Origin: Actinomyces oricola
GTDB lineage: Bacteria; Actinomycetota; Actinomycetes; Actinomycetales; Actinomycetaceae
Length of the DNA: 64,000 nucleotides
Assembly (NCBI RefSeq): GCF_004104015.1
Contig: NZ_RYFV01000001.1
Location: 1-64,000 of the forward strand
Direction of reading: 5' to 3'
The stretch's first letter is position 1, and every line of letters starts with the position of its first letter. Shown in pieces: positions 507 through 45,550 of the stretch. The notes under the pieces are model-generated. The model had not been told where the DNA came from, did not search any database, and worked only from the letters and a program-made list of their open reading frames with translations. Position numbers and translations under genes: made by a program.

Positions 507-1364
507 ATGATTGTCGAAGTGCAGGGCGCCGATGACCGCCTGGCTGATTACACTCGTTTAACCGATGTGGCTTTGCGGCGCCGCCTGGAAACTGAGCGCG
601 GCCTGTACATGGCCGAGTCCACCAAGGTCATTGCCAGGGCCGTGGCCGCGGGGCACGAGCCCCGCTCCTTCCTCATGGCTCCTCGCCATTACGCGGAGAT
701 GGCCCCGATTATCGCCTCGGCCGTGGGTTGTCAGGGGCGTGGCGACGGCGGAGCGGTGCCCGTGTTCCTGGCGCCCGAGCCGGTGCTGGAGGCGATCACT
801 GGTTTCCATCTTCACCGCGGGGCTCTGGCGGCCATGCACCGCCCGGCGTTGGCCGGCGTCCCCGACCTGCTCGCCGCCGCCCGCCGGGGCAGGGGGGCGC
901 GACGCGTGGCGATTCTGGAGGACCTGGTCGACCACACCAATGTGGGGGCCGTATTCCGCTCCGCGGCGGCCCTGGGCGTGGACGCCGTCCTGATCACGCC
1001 CCACTGCGCCGACCCTCTTTATCGGCGCAGCGTACGGGTGTCCATGGGCACGGTCTTCCAGGTTCCCTGGACGCGGATAGATCCGTGGCCCGCCACCGAG
1101 GAGCTGCATCGGGTCGGCTTCACCGTGGCCGCCCTGGCTCTGAGCCGGGACGCGGTGAGCCTGGACCAGTTCGCGGCGTCGCCGGCCTGCACCGGCGCCG
1201 AGTCCCGGGTGGCGTTGGTGCTGGGAACCGAGGGGGACGGCCTGAGCGCACGCACGGTGGCGAGGGCCGATGCGGTGGTGCGCATCCCCATGGCCGGGGG
1301 AGTGGACTCCCTCAATGTGGCCGCGGCCGCCGCTGTCGCCTTCTGGGCGGTGCGCACCGGGTGA
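507..1364 (+). CDS. TrmH/SpoU-family (SPOUT) RNA methyltransferase
   Basis: A 285-residue SAM-dependent RNA 2'-O-ribose methyltransferase of the SpoU class. The N-terminal part (about residues 1-110) is the variable RNA-binding domain. The knotted SPOUT domain follows. Motif 1 is near residues 134-160 (ILEDLVDHTNVGAVFRSAAA), motif 2 is VALVLGTEGDGLS, and motif 3 is IPMAGGVDSLNVAAAAAVA. The Arg in FRS and the Asn in SLNV are the usual functional residues. No Shine-Dalgarno lies before ATG 507. A TAATTC sequence six bases upstream could be a -10 for a leaderless message, though its last base departs from TAnnnT. The substrate (23S rRNA or tRNA) cannot be read from sequence. It converges with the PTS gene across a strong hairpin. 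Confidence 0.9.
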   Translation: MIVEVQGADDRLADYTRLTDVALRRRLETERGLYMAESTKVIARAVAAGHEPRSFLMAPRHYAEMAPIIASAVGCQGRGDGGAVPVFLAPEPVLEAITGFHLHRGALAAMHRPALAGVPDLLAAARRGRGARRVAILEDLVDHTNVGAVFRSAAALGVDAVLITPHCADPLYRRSVRVSMGTVFQVPWTRIDPWPATEELHRVGFTVAALALSRDAVSLDQFAASPACTGAESRVALVLGTEGDGLSARTVARADAVVRIPMAGGVDSLNVAAAAAVAFWAVRTG

Positions 1365-1373
1365 CGGTGCGGC

Positions 1374-1410
1374 GAGGGCCGGTACCCCAACGAGTGGGGT
1401 ACCGGCCCTC
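1374..1410. terminator. Bidirectional hairpin between convergent genes
   Basis: A perfect 15-bp inverted repeat (GAGGGCCGGTACCCC and its complement) has a 7-base loop. It begins ten bases after the methyltransferase stop and ends 18 bases before the PTS stop on the other strand. There is no U-tract, as is common for hairpin terminators in high-GC actinobacteria. It probably serves both genes. Confidence 0.8.
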
Positions 1411-1428
1411 GGTGAAGCCGGTTCAGGC

Positions 1429-3498
1429 TCAGGCGGTGACGCGCAGCAGCGGGTCGCCGCTCATGACGTCGCCACCGGTGGCGATGGCCTCAACGGAGGC
1501 GAACTTGGCGGTGTTGGTGACGAGCACCGGGGTGACCAGCGAGTAGCCGGCCTCCTCGACGACGGCGCGGTCAACACGCACCAGCACGTCACCGGCCTTG
1601 ACTCGCTGCCCCTGGGTGACTTTGACATCAAAGCCCTTGCCCTCCAGGTTGACGGTGTCAATGCCGACGTGGACCAGGATCTCAACACCGGAGTCCAGGT
1701 TAATGCCGAAGGCGTGACCGGAGGCGGGCGCCACCGCAAGAGTGCCGTCCGCGGGAGCGGTCACGACGATCTCGCCGGTGGGGGTTACGCCGGCGCCGTC
1801 GCCAACCGCACCGGAGGAGAACACCGGGTCGGGTACCTCGCTCAGGGGCACGACGTTCCCGGCCAGCGGTGAGGTGATCTCGGTGACGGTGCCCGGAACC
1901 AGGGCGGGCTTGTCCTCAGCCGGTGCCTCCGCAGCGGCTGAGGCGGACTCTCCGCCTCCAGCGGGGGTGTCCGCGGCCGGGCCGGCCTCGACGACGCCCG
2001 CGGCGGCGAGCGCCTCGGCCCGCTCCTCCTTCGTGCGGTAGCCGAAGGTGACAATGAGGAAGAACGCCGTGCCGAAGGCCGCGGCGACGGCGATGGCGTA
2101 GAGGGCCATCGGGCTGAAGACCGGGATGGTCAGCAGCGAGGTGAAGGCGAAGGTGCCGGTCTTGACGCCGCCGCCAATGCCCTCGATGATGCCGCCGACG
2201 GCGCAGCCGACGAGCATGAACGGGTAGATGCGCTTGAAGCGCAGGTGGATACCGTAGAGGGAGGGCTCGGAGATACCGCCGAGCAGACCGGCGAAGAGCG
2301 CACCGGTGGCGGTCTGGCGCATCTCATTGTCCTTGTCGCGGAAGGACCAGACGAGGACGGCGGCCGTGGCGCCGAAGCAGGCAAAGTTCCAGGCGCCCAT
2401 GGGGCCCTGGATGAAGTCGGTGTGACCAGTGGAATCCGAGGCGATGTTGGCCAGCATGAGGGCGTTGAGCGGCCAGTGCAGTCCCAGCGGCACCAGGAAG
2501 GGGTAGACCATGGGGATGATAATGGCGAAGACGATGGGGGCGTGACTATTGAGCCAGAAGAGGGCGGTGCCCAGGCCGGTACCGATCCACACGCCGAGGG
2601 GGCCGATGAGGAAGGCGGTCACGGGCATCATGACGCAGAAGGACAGGAAGGGCACGAACACCATCTGGACGTTGTCCGGGACGATCTTCGTCAGGCCCCT
2701 GTAGACCAGGGCCAGCACGGCCACCATCATGAGCGGGACGAAGACCTGGCCGCCGTAGGAGTTGAGCTGCATGGGCAGACCGGCGATGTGGGCGGTGCAC
2801 AGGTCGGAGTTAATGGTCTCGTTGTGGACGCACGTGGTGCTCGGGTGGTTGCTCAGGTCCAGGAACTCCGGAGTGAGGAGGGCCGTCATAATGGCGGTCC
2901 CGACCCACGGGTCGATCTTCAGCTTCTTGGAGGCGTTGTAGGCCACCATAATGGGCAGGAAGTAGAAGACGCTGCGGAACATGGCGTCCACGAAGAGCAG
3001 CGCGGCCGGCTTGTCCGCGTTCGCCGCGCGAGTGTCGATGAGGCCGAAGGCCTCGCAGATCGCCTCGCCGGCGATAATGAGCGAGGCGCCCAGCAGGACC
3101 GGCAGCAGCGGGCGGAAGGAGTCGGAGAGGTACTCGAAGAAGGCGTCCACCAGGGCGTTCTTGCCGCGGGTCTTCGCGCGGGCCTCGGCCTTCACCTCGG
3201 CGTCCGTCTTCGCCCCTCCCCCGGAGCCGGAGCCGCCGCCGGCCTTCATGGCCGGCAGGTTGGTGATCTGCTCGTAGACGCTGGCGACCGCTCCGCCAAT
3301 GACGATCTGGTAGCGGTCCCCGGCCTGGGGGACCGCGCCCATGACGCCGGGGATCGCCTCGACCGTGGCCTTATCGACGATAGAGGCGTCGTTGAGCTCG
3401 AAGCGCAGGCGGGTGGCGCAGTGCGTGAGGTGGATGATGTTTCCGGCCCCGCCGACGGCTTCAAGGATCGCCTCGGGGGTGGATGTGGTTGTAGCCAT
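1429..3498 (-). CDS. PTS beta-glucoside/sucrose-type permease, fused EIIBCA
   Basis: A 689-residue sugar permease that phosphorylates its sugar during uptake at the membrane. The order is EIIB (residues 1-85, phospho-Cys27 in LTHCATRLRF), a basic linker, EIIC (about 115-475, roughly ten membrane segments; GISEPSLYGIHLR loop), an Ala/Pro/Glu linker, and EIIA (about 545-689, active His610 in EILVHVGIDTV with partner His595). The EIIB-C-A order and these motifs match the beta-glucoside family (Bgl/Scr). The sugar is not certain. The start is ATG 3498, preceded by GGAAAGG six bases away, not the longer frame from 3600. No glycosidase or BglG antiterminator lies beside it, so the downstream hydrolase must be encoded elsewhere. 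Confidence 0.92.
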   Translation of the reverse strand: MATTTSTPEAILEAVGGAGNIIHLTHCATRLRFELNDASIVDKATVEAIPGVMGAVPQAGDRYQIVIGGAVASVYEQITNLPAMKAGGGSGSGGGAKTDAEVKAEARAKTRGKNALVDAFFEYLSDSFRPLLPVLLGASLIIAGEAICEAFGLIDTRAANADKPAALLFVDAMFRSVFYFLPIMVAYNASKKLKIDPWVGTAIMTALLTPEFLDLSNHPSTTCVHNETINSDLCTAHIAGLPMQLNSYGGQVFVPLMMVAVLALVYRGLTKIVPDNVQMVFVPFLSFCVMMPVTAFLIGPLGVWIGTGLGTALFWLNSHAPIVFAIIIPMVYPFLVPLGLHWPLNALMLANIASDSTGHTDFIQGPMGAWNFACFGATAAVLVWSFRDKDNEMRQTATGALFAGLLGGISEPSLYGIHLRFKRIYPFMLVGCAVGGIIEGIGGGVKTGTFAFTSLLTIPVFSPMALYAIAVAAAFGTAFFLIVTFGYRTKEERAEALAAAGVVEAGPAADTPAGGGESASAAAEAPAEDKPALVPGTVTEITSPLAGNVVPLSEVPDPVFSSGAVGDGAGVTPTGEIVVTAPADGTLAVAPASGHAFGINLDSGVEILVHVGIDTVNLEGKGFDVKVTQGQRVKAGDVLVRVDRAVVEEAGYSLVTPVLVTNTAKFASVEAIATGGDVMSGDPLLRVTA

Positions 3499-3863
3499 GA
3501 CTGGCCTTTCCATTCGACCCTTCTCCCCGAAGGGCTGGCATAGACCTGCGGGGAGTCGGGCTGTTGGTAGTGAACTGAACACTGGATCACACTGGATCAT
3601 TGCTCAAACGCTGAGCAATGGTCGAAGGGTAGCGCGATGGGACTGGGACCTTCGATCGTGCCGGGAAGTGATCCCGTCGATAGTACCGGTTCAGACTCAT
3701 GTCGGGAACCACATGCCGGTTCCTGCGCTCCTGCCTTCGCCGCATTCACAACTGTGGGGCGCCAATGACACCTCGTGCCCGAGTCTGGTTGCTGTGGCGA
3801 GGCCCACTCGTCCCCGCCGTCGGAGTACTCGACGGCGACGAGCACACTCAAGGAGTCCCTGAC
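3499..3863. other. Divergent control region between the PTS gene and an unknown gene
   Basis: 365 bases without a convincing gene. Reading toward the PTS gene it holds a 9-bp inverted repeat (3598-3620), two direct copies of ACTGGATCA (3581-3589, 3591-3599), and a weaker inverted pair GGTCGAAGG/CCTTCGATC (3620-3628, 3645-3653 approximately). In the PTS 5' leader, CTCCCCG (3523-3529) pairs with CGGGGAG (3549-3555), which could form an RNA hairpin 25 bases before the start codon. On the other side, AAGGAG at 3850-3855 is the ribosome site of the gene at 3864. Confidence 0.55.
3598..3620. promoter_or_regulatory. Operator-like inverted repeat upstream of the PTS gene
   Basis: CATTGCTCA and TGAGCAATG form a perfect 9-bp inverted repeat around a 5-base centre, about 100 bases upstream of the PTS start. 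On the PTS strand it includes TTGAGC, a possible -35 hexamer, so a repressor bound here would block transcription. The cognate regulator is not in the window. Its size and dyad fit a LacI- or GntR-type operator, but this is inference. Confidence 0.45.
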
Positions 3864-12942: not shown

Positions 12943-14172
12943 ATGTCGATCCGTCGCGTCGCCCTTCTCACCGCGGGCGGTTTCGCCCCTTGCCTGTCCG
13001 CCGCCGTCGGCGACCTCATCGAGCGCTACACCGAGGTCGCTCCCGACGTCGAGATCATCGCCTACCAGTACGGCTACCACGGCCTGCTGACCGGAAACTA
13101 TATTGTCATTGACGCCGAGGCCCGCAAGAACGCCGGCGTTCTGCGCTCCTACGGCGGCTCGCCGATCGGCAACTCCCGCGTCAAGCTCACCAACGCCAAG
13201 AACCTGGTGGAGCGCGGACTCGTCGCCGAGGGCGTCAACCCCCTGGAATTCGCCGCCGAGCAGTTGCGCAAAGACGGCGTGGACGTCCTGCACACCATTG
13301 GCGGGGATGACACCAACACCACCGCCGCCGACCTGGCCGCCTACCTCCACGAGAACAACTACGAGCTCACCGTTGTGGGCCTGCCCAAGACCATTGACAA
13401 CGACGTCGTCCCCATCCGCCAGTCCCTGGGCGCCTGGACCGCCGCGGAGGAGGGCGCCCGCTTCGCCTTCAACGTCATTGGTGAGCACCGCTCCAACCCG
13501 CGCATGCTCATCGTCCACGAGTGCATGGGCCGCAACTGCGGCTACCTCACCGCCGAGACCGCCCGCCGCTACCACGAACTGCTCAAGACTAAGCAGTGGG
13601 CGCCCTCGCTGGGCCTGACCAGGGAGCGCTGGGACGTCCACGCCGTCTTCGTCCCGGAGGCCAAGCTGGACATCGCCGCCGAGGCCGAGCGCCTTAAGGC
13701 CATTATGGACGAGCAGGGCAACGTCAACATCTTCCTGTCCGAGGGCGCCGGCGTCCCCGAGATCATTGCGGAGATGGAGGCGGCCGGCCAGGAGGTTCAG
13801 CGCGACCCCTTCGGCCACGTCAAGCTCGACACCATCAACCCCGGCCAGTGGTTCGCCAAGCAGTTCGCCGAGCTCATTGGCGCCGAGAAGGTCATGGTGC
13901 AGAAGTCCGGCTACTACTCGCGCGCCGCGGCCGCCAATGCCGAGGACCTCGACCTCATTAAGCAGATGTGCGACCTGGCCGTCGAGTGCGCTCAGCGCGG
14001 CGAGTCCGGTGTCATCGGCCAGGACGAGGAGAACAACGACGAGCTGACCGCCATCGCCTTCCCGCGCATTGCCGGCGCCAAGCCCTTCGACATCACCCAG
14101 CCCTGGTTCGCCGCTCTCATGACCGAGATCGGCCAGAGCGTCGAGCCGGCGGACACCCCCGCCGAGCACTGA
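12943..14172 (+). CDS. pfp: Pyrophosphate-dependent 6-phosphofructokinase
   Basis: A 409-residue glycolytic enzyme that interconverts fructose 6-phosphate and fructose 1,6-bisphosphate using PPi. The fold starts VALLTAGGFAPCLSAAV. The diagnostic TIGGDDTNTTA has the second Asp of GGDD where ATP enzymes carry Gly, and PKTIDND supplies the Lys that goes with PPi use. The MGRNCGYLTAE and GYYSRAA segments are substrate-site sequences. The PPi reaction is reversible, so it can serve both glycolysis and gluconeogenesis and save ATP in fermentation, in keeping with the pyruvate formate-lyase operon. ATG 12943 has GAAAGG upstream. Codons are strongly C-ending, as in a highly expressed gene. Confidence 0.93.
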   Translation: MSIRRVALLTAGGFAPCLSAAVGDLIERYTEVAPDVEIIAYQYGYHGLLTGNYIVIDAEARKNAGVLRSYGGSPIGNSRVKLTNAKNLVERGLVAEGVNPLEFAAEQLRKDGVDVLHTIGGDDTNTTAADLAAYLHENNYELTVVGLPKTIDNDVVPIRQSLGAWTAAEEGARFAFNVIGEHRSNPRMLIVHECMGRNCGYLTAETARRYHELLKTKQWAPSLGLTRERWDVHAVFVPEAKLDIAAEAERLKAIMDEQGNVNIFLSEGAGVPEIIAEMEAAGQEVQRDPFGHVKLDTINPGQWFAKQFAELIGAEKVMVQKSGYYSRAAAANAEDLDLIKQMCDLAVECAQRGESGVIGQDEENNDELTAIAFPRIAGAKPFDITQPWFAALMTEIGQSVEPADTPAEH

Positions 14173-14208
14173 GACCGAGCCGGTAAACCGGCACGGCCCA
14201 TCACCTGC

Positions 14209-14248
14209 TGGGGCCGATGGCGCAGCGAAAGCCACGCCATCGGCCCCA
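14209..14248 (+). terminator. Hairpin terminator after the phosphofructokinase gene
   Basis: A perfect 14-bp stem (TGGGGCCGATGGCG and its complement) has a 12-base loop. It starts 37 bases after the stop codon. Strong, without a clear U-tract. Confidence 0.8.
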
Positions 14249-14379
14249 AGGCATGCTTTAACGGGCCGCGAATACCGGCGCGCTGGAGTGAATGGCGATT
14301 CTCGAGCGGCCCCAAAAGGACAGGAAGTAACCCTTGTGTAAGGTCGATTCGCGCCCGATCGGAATGCTTGGATGGGCTC

Positions 14380-16983
14380 GTGAGCCACAGCCCCGCCGAG
14401 AGTGCCCCTGAACCGTCTGCCGAATCGCCCAATAGTCCGTCGTCTGCCGCGCCGGACAACGGTAGTGCCTCTGACCCTGAGGTGTCGTCATCAAATCGTC
14501 CGGTACTGACGGCGGACCAGGTGCCGTCACCGTCCACTCCGGACACTGCCGCGAATACCACTGCGGCCAGCCCTGAACCATCTGCCGGCAGTCCTGAACC
14601 GGCTGCGGCCAGCCCTGAAGCGTCTGCCGGCAGTCCTGAACCGGCTGCGGTCGGTTCTGAAGCGTCTGCCGGCAGTCCTGAACCGGCTGCGGCCAGTCCG
14701 GAACCGTCTGCCGGCAGTCCAGATAATGGCCCCGGGCCGGCTGCGGGCAGTGGCGATGAAGGTGACGTTGAGGATGCCACTGTGGTTGATCCTCTACGCG
14801 CCACCGCAAGTGGCGGCGTTGCTGATGAGGCGGCGCAGGTTCCTGCTGACGGGGTAGCGGCACCGGCTCCTCCTGGTTCGGTGTCGGCTGCTGATCAAGT
14901 GCCGGTGTCTCCCGGGTCGGGTGCCGTGCCGGCCGGTTCGGTGACTGGTTCTCCCTATATTGCGGTGTCGCCCTCCACCCCCGCGCCCGCTCCTTCCACC
15001 CCCACGCCCGCCCCGGCACCATTGCCGTCCGCTGGTGCGGCTTCTGGGGGTGTGCCGCGTCGTCGGCGCCCCAGGGCGCTGGCTGTTGTGATGACTTTTG
15101 TGCTTGTCATTGCCGCCGGTGTGGGTGTTGGTTGGTGGGCGGGTAATCGTGGTGGTCTGGGTGATTTTCGGCGGCCGCCGACCGTGGTTTCTATTGTTGA
15201 CTTTTCCATGGTGGCGGGCAGTGAGCAGGTTCAGGCTACTAGTGCTCCGGTGCTGCGTTCGGGTGATACCTCGATTATGCGTATGCGCGCCGGCGACCAG
15301 GAGTTGCTCAGCGCGGTCGATGTAGCGGGTTCGAGTAGTTATCCTTTATGGACGATTCCTTTGCCGTCGGGCACTGATCCTTGCTGGGTGGATGGTGACA
15401 TTGTGCACTGCGGTGACGGTGTTGCTGTTGATGCCGGTAGTGGTCATCCGCGAGGGGATGCGGCTTCGGCGGGGGCGGGCGCCGCTCCCGAGCCGGGTTT
15501 TACGAGTGCGCTGTTGACGGAAACTGCTAGCGCGCAGGTTCCTTATGCTCTTAGCGGCAGTGGTTCGGTGGTGGATGCGGCCGGTAATGCGGTGGAGGGC
15601 CTGGCATTGGGGTCTTCGGTGTGGGGCGTTCCGGCTCGGGTCTCGCGGAGCGTGGCGGGGATTGAGGTGCCTGGGAAGCGCGATATTTGGGTCCTGTGCG
15701 ATGGGGCTGTGGTGGCTGCCGTTGAGGGTACCGGGGTCCTGTGGTCGGTTGATTTGGTTGAGGGCAGTGCGGAGATTAATGGGTTCGTTGATGGGGGCAG
15801 TCCGCGTTGGCTGGTGGGTGATGCCCTGGTCATGGGGACTCCTTCGGGTGTGGTGGCCTGGGATCTTGATGATGGCCGGGAGTCGTGGCGGATTGATGTT
15901 CCTTTGAATTCGTGGACCTCTGATGATCAGTATCTTTATTTGTGGTCGAATGATTCGTTGAGTGTGGCTGATCTTGCTCAACCGGTGGATGATTCGGTTA
16001 CTGAGGTCACTGCTGTTGCTCAGCACCGGGAGGTGGCCCCGGGCGAGGACGAGCTCATGAACGCCACCTTGGAGGTCCCCGAGCGCTGCGGCCTGGAAGT
16101 ACCGCCCAGGGAGGCTTCCAGGCAGGGGCGGGCGACAATCGCCTTTGTAGACGGGACGGCCACCGGCGCTCCTCCGCTCTACGCCTCGACGCTCATTAAG
16201 GACGTCAGCTCCACGGTCTTTAACGGCCGACCCGCGGCCGTCGTCATTATCAACTGCGCTTACGGGACTCCCTACAGCGATGATGCGGTGATGGTTTATA
16301 ACCCTGATCTGGAGCTTGTCGCCGTCCTCGAACCGCTGTGGCAAAAGGCCTCGCTTGGCGGGCGGATCGATGATTTTAATATTACTTCTTTGACCGCTTT
16401 CGGGGAGTCCTTCCACCTGACCTGGGACGGTATTGGCCTGTACGGGGATGAGCCCAGCCACTTCGGCTACAAGTCCGGTAGTGCGGATGGGGACTTCGTC
16501 TGGGATGGCCAGGACTTCGTGGTCACTGATGTCTTGTTCCACACCCCTCAGGGGGATGTGCGCATGCCGGAGGTTTCCGCCGTGCAGGACTTCGCCACGG
16601 CGATCAGTATTGGGGATGACGCGACTGCTTCACAGAGCGCCACACCGGAGGCCATGGCCTCACTGTCCGATAAGATACATACCGTGGCGGCTGTTCGAGA
16701 GACGGTGCGCGAGTTCGTGTTCGCCCCGGGCGTGACTGTTGAGGAATGCGCGTTCGTGCCGCCCACCTGGTCAGAATCGAATACCGTCTACTTCCCTTCG
16801 GGAAAGAAAATCATTTTAAACCCTCCCTCCGAGACGCAGGGCGGTGATGTTATTTGCGCCACCACGGGCAGTTCCCACGACATCCCCGGATCAGACGGAT
16901 ACCAGGCGTGGATCCTCTTGCACCCTCACGAGGACGGCACCTTTGAGGCTTATAAGTTCAACTCCTACGCCGTGTTCTGTTGA
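14380..16983 (+). CDS. Large membrane-anchored protein with Pro/Ser repeat region and PQQ-like exterior domain
   Basis: About 867 residues. Residues 1-220 are Pro/Ser/Ala/Glu rich and include 14-residue repeats. A single membrane segment lies near residues 230-255 (RALAVVMTFVLVIAAGVGVG), preceded by RRRRPR, so the repeat region is cytoplasmic and the large C-terminal part is outside. The exterior (about 265-600) has repeated SLYPLWTIPLP-, GVLWSVDL- and GRESWRIDV-like strands typical of PQQ-type beta-propeller proteins. A second Cys-containing domain ends in AVFC. From about 14.8 to 16.02 kb codons end often in T or G, then return to C-ending, so the gene looks mosaic. The start is uncertain: GTG 14380 or TTG 14368. 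Function unknown. Confidence 0.75.
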   Translation: MSHSPAESAPEPSAESPNSPSSAAPDNGSASDPEVSSSNRPVLTADQVPSPSTPDTAANTTAASPEPSAGSPEPAAASPEASAGSPEPAAVGSEASAGSPEPAAASPEPSAGSPDNGPGPAAGSGDEGDVEDATVVDPLRATASGGVADEAAQVPADGVAAPAPPGSVSAADQVPVSPGSGAVPAGSVTGSPYIAVSPSTPAPAPSTPTPAPAPLPSAGAASGGVPRRRRPRALAVVMTFVLVIAAGVGVGWWAGNRGGLGDFRRPPTVVSIVDFSMVAGSEQVQATSAPVLRSGDTSIMRMRAGDQELLSAVDVAGSSSYPLWTIPLPSGTDPCWVDGDIVHCGDGVAVDAGSGHPRGDAASAGAGAAPEPGFTSALLTETASAQVPYALSGSGSVVDAAGNAVEGLALGSSVWGVPARVSRSVAGIEVPGKRDIWVLCDGAVVAAVEGTGVLWSVDLVEGSAEINGFVDGGSPRWLVGDALVMGTPSGVVAWDLDDGRESWRIDVPLNSWTSDDQYLYLWSNDSLSVADLAQPVDDSVTEVTAVAQHREVAPGEDELMNATLEVPERCGLEVPPREASRQGRATIAFVDGTATGAPPLYASTLIKDVSSTVFNGRPAAVVIINCAYGTPYSDDAVMVYNPDLELVAVLEPLWQKASLGGRIDDFNITSLTAFGESFHLTWDGIGLYGDEPSHFGYKSGSADGDFVWDGQDFVVTDVLFHTPQGDVRMPEVSAVQDFATAISIGDDATASQSATPEAMASLSDKIHTVAAVRETVREFVFAPGVTVEECAFVPPTWSESNTVYFPSGKKIILNPPSETQGGDVICATTGSSHDIPGSDGYQAWILLHPHEDGTFEAYKFNSYAVFC
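14569..14721 (+). repeat. 42-bp tandem repeats encoding 14-residue Pro/Ser units
   Basis: Three full 42-bp units start at 14569, 14611 and 14653, and a partial fourth starts at 14695. They encode SPEPSAGSPEPAAA with small variations (SPEASAGSPEPAAV, GSEASAGSPEPAAA). The unit preserves frame, so length variation between strains is expected. The encoded stretch lies on the cytoplasmic side of the membrane segment. Confidence 0.88.
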
Positions 16984-42051: not shown

Positions 42052-42184
42052 GGATTCCAGATGATCCTGTGAGTGATCACACCAAGGGACTTCTGGCCCG
42101 CTATCCTCTTCGCCGGGGCGTCCGCCTAGGCTTGGGGCGACGGCGCAAGGAGTACCGCCACGCCCCACAAGGGCGATCACCACC

Positions 42185-42204
42185 GGGCGGCCCACCGGCC
42201 GCCC
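42185..42204 (+). promoter_or_regulatory. Leader hairpin before the pflB ribosome site
   Basis: GGGCGGCC and GGCCGCCC form a perfect 8-bp stem with a CACC loop. The stem ends six bases before GGAGGG (42211-42216). It may stabilise the message or affect ribosome loading. Confidence 0.5.
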
Positions 42205-42221
42205 ACAACAGGAGGGCACGG

Positions 42222-44339
42222 ATGACCACCGACGTCACAGCATCCGCCGCGGCGGAGAAGACCGTTACCGACGCGTGGGAGGGTTTCGCCACCGGACCGT
42301 GGACGGAGGGCATTGACGTTCGCGATTTCATTCAGCGCAACTACACCCCCTACGAGGGGGACGCCTCGTTCCTGGCCGGCCCCACGGACAAGACCCTGCG
42401 CCTGTGGGAGACCCTGGAGACGAAGTTCCTCGCCGAGGAGCGCAAGGTTCGCATCCTGGACGTCGACACTCATACCCCGGCCGATATTGACGCCTTCCCC
42501 GCCGGCTACATTAGCGAGGACGATGACGTCATTGTCGGACTGCAGACCGACTCCCCGCTCAAGCGGGCCATGATGCCCAACGGCGGTTGGCGCATGGTGG
42601 AGACCGCGATCAAGGAGGCCGGCAAGGAAGTCGACCCCGAGGTCAAGAAGATCTTCACCAAGTACCGCAAGACCCACAACGACGCCGTCTTCGACATCTA
42701 CACCCCGCGCATCCGCGCCGCCCGCTCCTCTCACATTATTACCGGCCTGCCCGACGCCTACGGCCGGGGCCGCATTATTGGCGACTACCGCCGTGTGGCC
42801 CTCTACGGCGTGGACCGCCTCATCGAGGACAAGCAGCGGGCCAAGGACGCCGTGGCCGACGAGCCCTTCTCCGAGCACTGGGCCCGCTTCCGTGAGGAGC
42901 ACTCCGAGCAGATCAAGGCCCTCAAGAAGCTCAAGGTCATGGCCTCCTTCTACGGCTATGACATCTCCGGGCCGGCCAAGGACGCCCACGAGGCGGTCCA
43001 GTGGACCTACTTCGCCTACCTGGCCTCGGTGAAGTCCCAGGACGGCGCCGCCATGAGCATTGGTCGCCTGTCCGCCTTCCTGGACATCTACATCGAACGG
43101 GACCTGGCCGCCGGTGTTATTGACGAGTCCCGCGCCCAGGAGCTCATTGACAACATTGTCATGAAGCTGCGCATTACCCGCTTCCTGCGCACCATTGACT
43201 ACGACCAGATCTTCTCCGGCGACCCCTACTGGGCCACCTGGTCCGACGCAGGATTCTCTGAGGACGGTCGCTCCCAGGTCACCAAGACCTCCTTCCGCCT
43301 GCTGCAGACCCTGCGCAACCTGGGTCCGGCCCCCGAGCCGAACATCACCATCTTCTGGGACGAGAACCTGCCCCAGGGCTACAAGGACTTCTGCGCGCTC
43401 ATCTCCATCACCACCTCCTCCATCCAATACGAGGCCGACGATCAGATCCGCGAGCACTGGGGCGACGACGCCGCCATCGCCTGCTGCGTGTCCCCCATGC
43501 GCGTGGGCAAGCAGATGCAGTTCTTCGGCGCCCGCGTCAACTCCGCCAAGGCGCTGCTGTACGCCATTAACGGCGGCCGCGACGAGATGACCGGCAAGCG
43601 GGTCGTGCCCGGGCTGCCCGGCATTGAGGGCGACGGCCCACTGGACTTCGACGAGGTCTGGGACAAGTACGAGAAGATGCTCGACTGGGTCGTGGCCACC
43701 TACGTCGAGGCCCTCAACATTATCCACTACTGCCATGACCGCTACGCCTACGAGTCCATTGAAATGGCGCTGCACGACTCCGATATTGTGCGCACCATGG
43801 GCTGCGGCATCGCCGGGCTGTCCATTGTGGCCGACTCCCTGGCCGCCATTAAGTACGCCACGGTGACCCCTGTGCGCGACGAGACCGGCCTGGTGGTCGA
43901 CTACATTACCGAGGGCGATTTCCCGATCTACGGCAACGACGATGACCGTGCCGACGACATTGCCGCCACCGTGGTTCACACGATCATGTCCAAGATCAAG
44001 GCCCAGCCCTTCTACCGCGACGCCATTCCCACCCAGTCCGTGCTCACCATTACCTCCAACGTCGTCTACGGCAAGGCCACCGGGAACTTCCCCTCCGGGC
44101 ACCGCAAGGGCACGCCCTTCTCCCCGGGGGCCAACCCGGAGAACGGTATGGACACCCACGGCATGGTCGCCTCCATGCTCAGTGTGGGCAAGCTCGACTA
44201 CAACGACGCCCTGGACGGCATCTCGCTCACCAACACCATCACCCCCCAGGGCCTGGGGCGCACCATGGACGAGCGCGTCGCCAACCTTGTGGGCATCCTC
44301 GACGCGGGCTTCGTCCCCGACGACTGCGCCGAGGTCTGA
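42222..44339 (+). CDS. pflB: Pyruvate formate-lyase catalytic subunit lacking the glycyl-radical domain
   Basis: A 705-residue enzyme for pyruvate + CoA to acetyl-CoA + formate. The active-site cysteines are Cys421-Cys422 in IACCVSPMRVG. The fold is complete through LTITSNVVYGKATGNFPSGH and FSPGANPENGMDTHG, and the chain ends at GILDAGFVPDDCAEV. In E. coli PflB (760 residues) the chain continues into the glycyl-radical domain ending RVSGYAVRF; here that domain is encoded by the next gene. GGAGGG is five bases before ATG 42222. Stop codon, ribosome site and new start separate the two genes by 63 bases, so this is not a point frameshift. Codons are those of a highly expressed gene. Confidence 0.95.
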   Translation: MTTDVTASAAAEKTVTDAWEGFATGPWTEGIDVRDFIQRNYTPYEGDASFLAGPTDKTLRLWETLETKFLAEERKVRILDVDTHTPADIDAFPAGYISEDDDVIVGLQTDSPLKRAMMPNGGWRMVETAIKEAGKEVDPEVKKIFTKYRKTHNDAVFDIYTPRIRAARSSHIITGLPDAYGRGRIIGDYRRVALYGVDRLIEDKQRAKDAVADEPFSEHWARFREEHSEQIKALKKLKVMASFYGYDISGPAKDAHEAVQWTYFAYLASVKSQDGAAMSIGRLSAFLDIYIERDLAAGVIDESRAQELIDNIVMKLRITRFLRTIDYDQIFSGDPYWATWSDAGFSEDGRSQVTKTSFRLLQTLRNLGPAPEPNITIFWDENLPQGYKDFCALISITTSSIQYEADDQIREHWGDDAAIACCVSPMRVGKQMQFFGARVNSAKALLYAINGGRDEMTGKRVVPGLPGIEGDGPLDFDEVWDKYEKMLDWVVATYVEALNIIHYCHDRYAYESIEMALHDSDIVRTMGCGIAGLSIVADSLAAIKYATVTPVRDETGLVVDYITEGDFPIYGNDDDRADDIAATVVHTIMSKIKAQPFYRDAIPTQSVLTITSNVVYGKATGNFPSGHRKGTPFSPGANPENGMDTHGMVASMLSVGKLDYNDALDGISLTNTITPQGLGRTMDERVANLVGILDAGFVPDDCAEV

Positions 44340-44402
44340 GCCGGACCGTCCCGGCACAACCAGCTTCCACTCATCGACGAACAACCACGAAAGGGGCCGA
44401 GC

Positions 44403-44648
44403 ATGGCCACGTATGAGGAGCGCCTGGCCTCCATGAAGGCACAGCGTCAGGACAATGGCGGCGTCAAGGGCCTGTACCACGCCAACATTAACGTCCTGGA
44501 CCGCAACACCCTCGAGGACGCAATGGAGCACCCGGAGAACTACCCGAACCTCACGGTCCGCGTCTCCGGCTACGCCGTTAACTTCGTCAAGCTCACCCGT
44601 GAGCAGCAGCTCGACGTCCTCAACCGCACCTTCCACTCCCAGGCCTGA
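44403..44648 (+). CDS. Stand-alone glycyl-radical subunit of pyruvate formate-lyase
   Basis: An 81-residue protein equivalent to the C-terminus of PflB and of E. coli GrcA/YfiD. It has [19 protein letters not shown], then the radical loop RVSGYAVNF with the radical Gly at residue 56, and [14 protein letters not shown]. The N-terminal 20 residues are charged and begin [14 protein letters not shown]. It lacks the extra N-terminal domain of E. coli YfiD (127 residues). AAAGGGG is seven bases before the start. It must assemble with the upstream subunit to supply the radical, and be the target of the activase encoded 24 bases downstream. Confidence 0.92.
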
Positions 44649-44671
44649 GCCGGGAGCGGGGCGATGCTCAG

Positions 44672-45550
44672 ATGACTGAGACCATCACCCCCGCGGTTAC
44701 GGGCGGCCGGGACCAGGACTTCCTGGCCCCGGCCGCCCGCTTGCGCGGGGCGGGCATTGGCGGGCTCGAGGAGCTCACCGACCTTGAGCGCTCCGAGCGC
44801 TTAGCGCGCATGCGCGAGGGCTCCCTGGGGTCTATTCACTCCTGGGAACTCGTCACGGCCGTGGACGGGCCGGGCACGCGCATGACCATCTTCCTCAACG
44901 GCTGCCCGCTGCGCTGCCTGTACTGCCACAACCCCGACACTTTTCTCATGAGGGACGGGGAGCCGGTGACCGCCGAGGAGCTGCTGCGCCGCATGAGGCG
45001 CTACCGTCGAGTCTTCAAGGCCTCTAAGGGCGGGATCACGCTCTCGGGCGGGGAGGCACTCATGCAGCCCGCCTTCGTGGACCGCCTGCTGGCGGGCGCC
45101 AAGAAGATGGGCATTCACACCTGCCTGGACACCTCCGGCTACCTGGGGGCCAACGCCAGCGACGAGATGCTGGCCAATGTCGACCTAGTGCTCCTGGATG
45201 TGAAAAGCGGGGATGAGGAGACCTACAAGCGGGTCACCGGACGCTCCCTGGCCCCCACCATCGCCTTCGGCGACCGCCTGGCCGCCAAGGGCATTGAGAT
45301 CTGGGCCCGTTTCGTCCTGGTCCCGGGCCTGACCGACGACCCCGCCAATGTGGAGAACGTCGCCAGGATCATTGAGCGCTGGGGCCCGGCGGTCAGCCGG
45401 GTCGAAGTACTGCCCTTCCACCAGATGGGCGCCGATAAGTGGGCGGCCCTGGGCTTGGACTACCAGCTGGCCGACGTGCGCCCCCCCGAGCCCGAGCTCG
45501 TCGAGTCCACCCGGGCCATCTTCCGATCCCACGGCTTCGAGGTGCACTAA
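44672..45550 (+). CDS. pflA: Pyruvate formate-lyase activating enzyme (radical SAM)
   Basis: A 292-residue radical-SAM enzyme that places the radical on glycine. The [4Fe-4S] motif is CPLRCLYCHNPDT, followed by GITLSGGEALMQP and LVLLDVKSGDEE. It has an N-terminal extension of about 45 residues compared with E. coli PflA (246), including LEELTDLERSERLARMREG. Its true substrate here is the small glycyl-radical protein. The ribosome site before ATG 44672 is weak (GGGAG is more than ten bases away), but it follows the small gene closely and is probably co-transcribed. Confidence 0.94.
   Translation: MTETITPAVTGGRDQDFLAPAARLRGAGIGGLEELTDLERSERLARMREGSLGSIHSWELVTAVDGPGTRMTIFLNGCPLRCLYCHNPDTFLMRDGEPVTAEELLRRMRRYRRVFKASKGGITLSGGEALMQPAFVDRLLAGAKKMGIHTCLDTSGYLGANASDEMLANVDLVLLDVKSGDEETYKRVTGRSLAPTIAFGDRLAAKGIEIWARFVLVPGLTDDPANVENVARIIERWGPAVSRVEVLPFHQMGADKWAALGLDYQLADVRPPEPELVESTRAIFRSHGFEVH

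Follow-up and report, generated by a model that had tools for sequence, protein, structure and literature searches.

Pyruvate formate-lyase (PFL) is an oxygen-sensitive enzyme with a key part in the anaerobic use of sugars. In the well-studied PFL of Escherichia coli, PflB (TIGR01255; PDB 2pfl, 1h16), the radical glycine and the active-site cysteines are carried by one chain. According to two papers (PMC8683613, PMC12338860; PDB 6owr), the spare part GrcA/YfiD is an unlinked 127-residue repair protein that exists beside full-length PFL and gives a strand, a glycine loop and a helix to a PFL lacking the glycine. A third arrangement, the pair tPFL(1-695):truncYfiD(61-127), was engineered from the E. 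coli proteins in the laboratory and associates poorly (PMC8683613). We describe here a locus of Actinomyces oricola at which the radical glycine and the cysteines lie on two separate chains. The locus is part of a stretch of 64,000 nucleotides (positions 1 to 64,000 of the forward strand of contig NZ_RYFV01000001.1, assembly GCF_004104015.1), hereafter the window, and very probably encodes an obligate two-subunit PFL.

The two chains of the Actinomyces oricola enzyme

The large subunit, a PflB of 705 residues, is encoded on the plus strand at 42222..44339 and starts with an ATG preceded by AACAGGAGGGCACGG. It matches positions 1-681 of the 744 of TIGR01255 with 988.5 bits, just below the cut-off of 994.2, its C-terminus being missing; other split genomes score just above or just below that value. 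The PFL barrel with its adjacent cysteine pair is present, and Cys421-Cys422 (codons 43482..43487, motif IACCVSP) correspond to E. coli Cys418-Cys419. The alignment with E. coli PFL ends at F697, which pairs with residue 693, and the chain closes with eight residues past the last one aligned by phmmer (VPDDCAEV), before the glycyl-radical loop. This loop, which in TIGR01255 enzymes is expected on the same chain, sits on a chain of 81 residues encoded by the next gene (44403..44648, plus strand, ATG at 44403), beyond the TGA stop at 44337..44339 and a 63-bp spacer (44340..44402) holding the ribosome-site-like GAAAGGGG. Residues 18-78 of the small chain align with E. coli PFL 696-756, so that Gly56 (codon GGC, 44568..44570) is the equivalent of Gly734. 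The glycine-radical family PF01228 is likewise divided, profile positions 1-65 lying on PflB and 65-106 on the small protein. The gene that follows is pflA (44672..45550, plus strand), whose product of 292 residues is a radical S-adenosylmethionine activating enzyme (motif GCPLRCLYCH; TIGR02493, 302.6 bits against a cut-off of 231.75). The first-pass annotation, made from the letters of the window, had described a PflB ending before the radical domain, a separate 81-residue gene with RVSGYAVNF, Gly56 and its own ribosome site, and an activase gene next in line, and all of this was borne out.

The enzyme thus shares with E. coli PflB the fold, the Cys-Cys pair, the tested active-site residues, the type of activase and the RVSGYAV loop, and differs from it in that the loop is on a second chain, the cut falling between the equivalents of residues 693 and 696, and in that the small chain has a new N-terminal segment. 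This segment (residues 3-17, codons 44409..44453) is predicted to be a helix and cannot be aligned with fused PFL; across 31 aligned small chains R7 is invariant, T3, M11 and R15 are each kept in 97%, and RVSGYAVNF is identical in all 31. On the large chain, eight residues that we take to be catalytic (R176, A272, F327, W333, C418, C419, F432 and R435 in E. coli numbering) are identical in all 39 aligned split PFLs of the window's type, which we call the first clade. Twenty-nine other sites are fixed differently in this clade and in 26 fused actinomycete PFLs, among them T619 and R623 of the TPDGRR loop, which have become F and H.

Compared with GrcA/YfiD, the small protein likewise offers strand, glycine loop and helix as a separate polypeptide, but it has 81 residues, is co-operonic with pflB and carries the only PFL-type glycine loop found in the genome. 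Compared with the laboratory pair, the place of the cut is the same, whereas in the natural pair the large chain ends in a short tail and the small one begins with a predicted N-terminal helix. Automated labelling follows GrcA, as had been foreseen: the small protein passes the NCBIfam model GrcA2 (NF008341) with 167 bits against a cut-off of 145, and it does not reach the cut-off of TIGR04365, the model of the GrcA/YfiD spare part (85 bits against 170). The entries GrcA2 and GrcA3 (NF038360) are named 'autonomous glycyl radical cofactor', unlike the subunit role that we propose.

Does the genome hold another PFL that the small protein could serve? The PFL and the glycine-radical families each match one further locus, on contig 18 (G000, 13735-16056; L001, L004). 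Its product belongs to the PFL2 subfamily of glycyl-radical enzymes (TIGR01774, cut-off 678.2 bits, score 716.8) and is fused, with a single-cysteine GCVE replacing the cysteine pair; the neighbour of the gene is a gene resembling transaldolase/fructose-6-phosphate aldolase (FSA). The gene pair presumably resembles the pflD/ybiW loci of E. coli. On the grounds of its PFL2 type, its GCVE motif and its FSA-like neighbour we rejected this enzyme as a second PFL. The search of the genome with both families found no second full-length PFL, and hence none for the small protein to repair. The first-pass annotation had named a second full-length pflB, with this operon silent, as an outcome that would refute its reading, and this objection fails. 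The PFL of this locus is the only one found in the genome, in agreement with the earlier suggestion that the split form is the only form, and its large chain is without a radical glycine.

Conservation of the split and integrity of the locus

The sample of the family Actinomycetaceae comprised 213 genomes, and TIGR01255 matched in 189 of them; we judged 157 of these to be split and 32 fused. Among the 150 TIGR01255 matches listed, 32 were full-length (model 1-2 to 742-744, in frames of 755-812 residues) and 118 were not, 117 of the latter ending at model position 676-702; in genome G167 the match continues only through one TGA, as in the window. For a further 39 genomes the score of split rests on two observations, E-values (about 1e-294 to 1e-298) worse than that of every full-length match and a split-type small gene in each. 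The small protein matched in 195 of the 213 genomes, 157 times as the split type, 32 times within a fused PFL and six times weakly to another enzyme (E about 1e-7 to 1e-8). A search with the large chain in 52 doubtful genomes gave 40 matches, 34 strong and six weak, and the strong ones were the 32 fused PFLs and two split ones, G123, which is interrupted by a contig end, and G178. We considered G178 as fused for its frame of 764 residues and rejected this, the frame being merely long and the small gene separate. Thirty split and 12 fused loci were read by script.

Among the matches listed, no split genome has a full-length match, the full-length ones belonging to the 32 other genomes, and no family genome has a second close copy of the small gene. 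The second TIGR01255 matches in three split genomes (G011, G012, G043; each below 991 bits) are no intact full-length PFL. A second, weaker match to the small protein occurs in 16 split genomes and is, in that of the window, the contig-18 enzyme. Two genus groups hold both states (g10, with G084 and G085 fused and G086 split; g13, with G095-G099 fused and G100 split), which suggests gene replacement. The first-pass annotation had allowed that fused genes in related strains could mark this one as a local deletion. Fused relatives do exist in 32 family genomes, but the split PFLs form one clade of many genera, so that the split is conserved and not a local deletion.

In the window the TGA of pflB and the ATG at 44403 share a frame without any other stop between them, and reading through or recoding this TGA would yield a single chain. 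The relation is there by chance only, since in the 30 first-clade split loci, window included, the two genes are in frame in five, the stop of pflB is TAA in 14, TAG in two and TGA in 14, and the gaps, taken by the script's nearest-start rule, range from 4 to 113 bp. With three stop codons in use and varying gaps and frames the cut is genuine, and we rejected read-through. The gene after the small one is pflA in 29 of these loci, and the thirtieth ends at a contig edge. The ratio of non-synonymous to synonymous substitution rates (dN/dS) was 0.06-0.22 for pflB and the small gene alike in four comparisons, and in a fifth (L105) it was 0.09 for the small gene, dS of pflB being saturated; both genes are under purifying selection.

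A few further features of the locus may be recorded. A frame of 756 residues over pflB is a GTG-start extension of the 705-residue frame. A promoter and terminator scan of the locus predicted no terminator and a single promoter-like site, which lies inside pflB. The palindrome TGTGAGTGATCACA (42068-42081), upstream of pflB, was considered as a regulatory site and dropped, as it is absent from all 49 other upstream stretches scanned. On the minus strand, an open frame of 819 residues (42177-44636) runs over nearly the whole of pflB and is most likely an artefact of G+C content at codon positions.

A second split and the origin of both

In two other families of the same phylum (f20 and f41), which we take to be Coriobacteriia, a short separate radical gene was found in 21 genomes. 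A truncated PFL gene lies upstream of it at all 21 loci, and 20 of these large chains were fetched in full length (L218-L237). Their alignable part ends about 17 residues earlier than that of the first clade, at residue 680-689 of the window's PflB in 18 of the 20 and at 696 and 701 in two, as against 697 or later in the first clade. Their tails are variable, often acidic and contain cysteines, nine of the 20 chains ending in Cys, and the small chain retains the helix before the strand (DNLVSMIDAYAEKGGHHLNVNV). pflA adjoins the small gene in six of the f20 loci and lies further downstream in others; it was not found in the fetched stretches of L224, L229 and L230. Two small proteins of this second clade pass the cut-off of NCBIfam GrcA3, as the tested ones of the first clade pass that of GrcA2.

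In a tree of 140 PFL rows, split and fused, the 39 rows of the first clade form one group with a support of 100 in the approximate likelihood-ratio test (SH-aLRT). Its stem measures 0.76 changes per column, and it falls within the fused PFLs of actinomycetes, beside those of Microbacterium and Isoptericola. The second clade, with 20 rows, makes up a separate group (SH-aLRT 100) among Bacillota-like PFLs. Partial or duplicate loci (L106-L135) and broken or cut ones (L139, L142, L185, L199, L201) were left out. In a second tree of 60 rows, a chosen subset with L245 added in which PDB 38la and 38lb count as split, forcing the two split groups together cost 133 log units (approximately unbiased (AU) test, p-AU 1.1e-7), and a single origin of all splits was rejected. 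Both trees were quick ones without bootstrap, and the groups for the AU test were named after the 140-row tree was known. Read from these trees, PFL appears to have been cut in a similar way on two or more occasions in the history of bacteria, and the place of Corynebacterium and Dermabacteraceae within the first clade points to transfer between families.

Has the split been described before? Among the matches listed in the open full-text literature, which leaves subscription papers and preprints largely uncovered, no paper on a naturally split PFL was found. The statement of the first-pass annotation that no natural split of this layout had been described therefore stands for those matches, and it is weakened by the NCBIfam models GrcA2 and GrcA3 and by two PDB entries, 38lb_A (739 residues) and 38la_A (687 residues), both named 'Formate acetyltransferase' and both without a radical-domain match. 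The former shares 82-83% identity with each of the three second-clade large subunits nearest to it; the latter ends at the second-clade cut, and its nearest relatives are fused PFLs of Bacillota (77%). By its sequence 38lb looks like a large subunit of the second clade; 38la is perhaps one too, although it may be an engineered truncation. Because of the close identity of 38lb, the second split has probably already been noticed by others. In a transcriptome study of Fannyhessea vaginae, whose PFL may be split, grcA and pflB go down together, 17.96-fold and 14.31-fold (PMC11979175). PMC4177395 reports a lack of evidence for PFL in Varibaculum cambriense.

A scan of named genomes gave at least 576 loci, and the best 80 were kept, of which the script scored 65 as fused, 11 as split and four as other. 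The split ones come from Actinomyces gaoshouyii, a metagenome-assembled genome (MAG) of Trueperella, seven Corynebacterium, Brachybacterium squillarum and Dermabacter hominis. In the ten of these genomes that were searched (all except L142), no Gly_radical match besides the two pieces was found. In the Trueperella MAG (L139), pflB is broken by an in-frame stop near 1501, perhaps an assembly error. The remaining four loci are that of Silvimonas terrae, a frame-broken one (L185) and two cut by contig ends (L199, L201). In Silvimonas terrae (L151, 1786-4445) a small gene for a glycine domain lies no more than about 60 bases behind a full-length pflB, an arrangement that may resemble the state before a split.

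Beyond the family, the small protein matched in 66 of 396 genomes of the phylum, and a split of the first type occurs in G351, a genome of the same order as the window but of a different family. Bacillota and Pseudomonadota were searched at E 1e-20, with weaker small genes below view. In Bacillota 103 of 299 genomes matched, and one, G844, has a clear split of the second type. In Pseudomonadota 32 of 249 matched, and 13 of these have a separate frame of GrcA size (128-176 residues), in all 13 together with a full-length PFL; no split PFL was seen among the 32, G996 showing only a frame of 456 residues. Two observations lie apart from these. At locus L246 (G824, 957-3617) a PFL2-type frame ends at 770 residues and the radical domain follows directly in a separate frame of 110 residues, which is either a frameshift or a split in a different class of enzyme. 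In a phage collection, relatives of the small protein occur in 1533 of 50,697 records; many of these are T4-like enterobacterial phages, and some of the genes are annotated grcA.

Alternatives and a proposed model of the two-subunit enzyme

An error of sequencing or assembly, or a local pseudogene, would have been a natural suspicion in a draft genome of 78 contigs; the family comparison, with 157 of 189 PFL genomes split and a low dN/dS, refutes it and leaves its probability practically nil. A single chain made through the TGA, which the shared frame in the window would permit, is scarcely more credible in view of the stop codons, frames and gaps of the other loci and of the ribosome-site-like sequence in the spacer. 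It would be a more serious objection that the small protein is a spare part of the GrcA/YfiD type, which mends PFL that oxygen has cut, normal catalysis being left to a full-length PFL. The name of the GrcA2 model that it matches speaks for this, as does the coexistence of GrcA-sized proteins with full PFL in Pseudomonadota. However, neither the genome nor the listed matches of the split genomes offered a full-length PFL to be repaired, and the small gene lies between pflB and pflA, whereas grcA of E. coli is far from pflB. We regard the spare-part explanation as improbable.

Neutral fission of the gene, without benefit and with the subunit kept because re-fusion is hard, has to be taken more seriously. 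It is consistent with a small gene that is co-operonic and lacks a second close copy among the matches listed, and we take the families of the second split clade to be mostly strict anaerobes. On the other side stand two origins at neighbouring places, the presence of the split in other families and orders (Corynebacterium, Dermabacteraceae, G351), the long stem of the first clade and its 29 differing sites, though none of these points proves a benefit. Neutral fission is a real possibility in our estimate, but hardly the probable one.

For the obligate two-subunit enzyme that we favour, we propose the following scenario. Barrel, substrate sites and cysteine pair would come from the 705-residue chain, while the 81-residue chain would complete the barrel with its last strand and add the glycyl-radical loop and the helix at the C-terminus. 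Aided by its new conserved N-terminal helix, the small chain would dock in the place that the C-terminus takes up in a fused PFL; PflA would then install the radical on Gly56, which would hand it to the cysteine pair as in E. coli. Complex formation, the glycyl radical and the activity of the pair are thus what we infer from the sequences. In a fold model of the read-through chain, the N-terminal segment forms a helix at 731-744, with a mean predicted local distance difference test (pLDDT) score of 82 over 731-740 and 62 over 741-750, and the model superposes on E. coli PFL with a template modelling (TM) score of 0.90 by query and 0.96 by target. According to PMC8683613, tPFL(1-695):YfiD, cut at the same place, has wild-type activity once activated. 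Formate secretion is reported for strains including Actinomyces naeslundii, a species that may share the split (PMC6493303).

Several points weigh against this scenario. The fold model treats the two proteins as a single read-through chain, and fused PFLs make up 44 of the 61 alignment rows that guided it, so that docking was partly imposed; an alignment made without fused rows (A3) put eight of its nine small rows in the wrong place (19-28% identity). Position 468, a ninth that we took to be catalytic, varies in all groups, so that either the number is wrong or the residue is non-catalytic. The E. coli pair tPFL:YfiD showed no detectable binding and a 32-fold lower activation (PMC8683613). 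Since that pair binds undetectably and is poorly activated, the natural pair must differ from it, and the features that restore binding could be the large-chain tail, the small-chain helix and a part of the 29 differing sites.

The benefit of such an arrangement may lie in oxygen damage. Oxygen cleaves E. coli PFL between S733 and G734 (PMC12338860), and by analogy with this chemistry the 9-kDa chain would be the only one cut, and a fresh copy could then take its place; we consider this a nearly balanced question, with doubt slightly prevailing. It is a more speculative idea, which we put forward as possible without thinking it probable, that PFL was split twice as an adaptation. The small chain would then be a consumable cartridge, docked by its helix, made radical only when docked, cut by oxygen instead of the large chain and exchanged, and repair in the manner of GrcA would be the normal working of the enzyme.

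These results call for caution in annotation, as public models label the small chain a spare part and a gene called GrcA can be a needed subunit. If active, the natural pair solves the binding problem met by the tPFL:YfiD construct of E. coli. Such an exchangeable radical chain would make docking, activation by PflA and oxygen cleavage separable for study, and it would provide a natural model for the assembly, and perhaps the repair, of radical enzymes. For the family itself, a two-chain PFL would be the form used by most of the members that have a PFL, with relatives, according to the tree, in Corynebacterium and Dermabacter.

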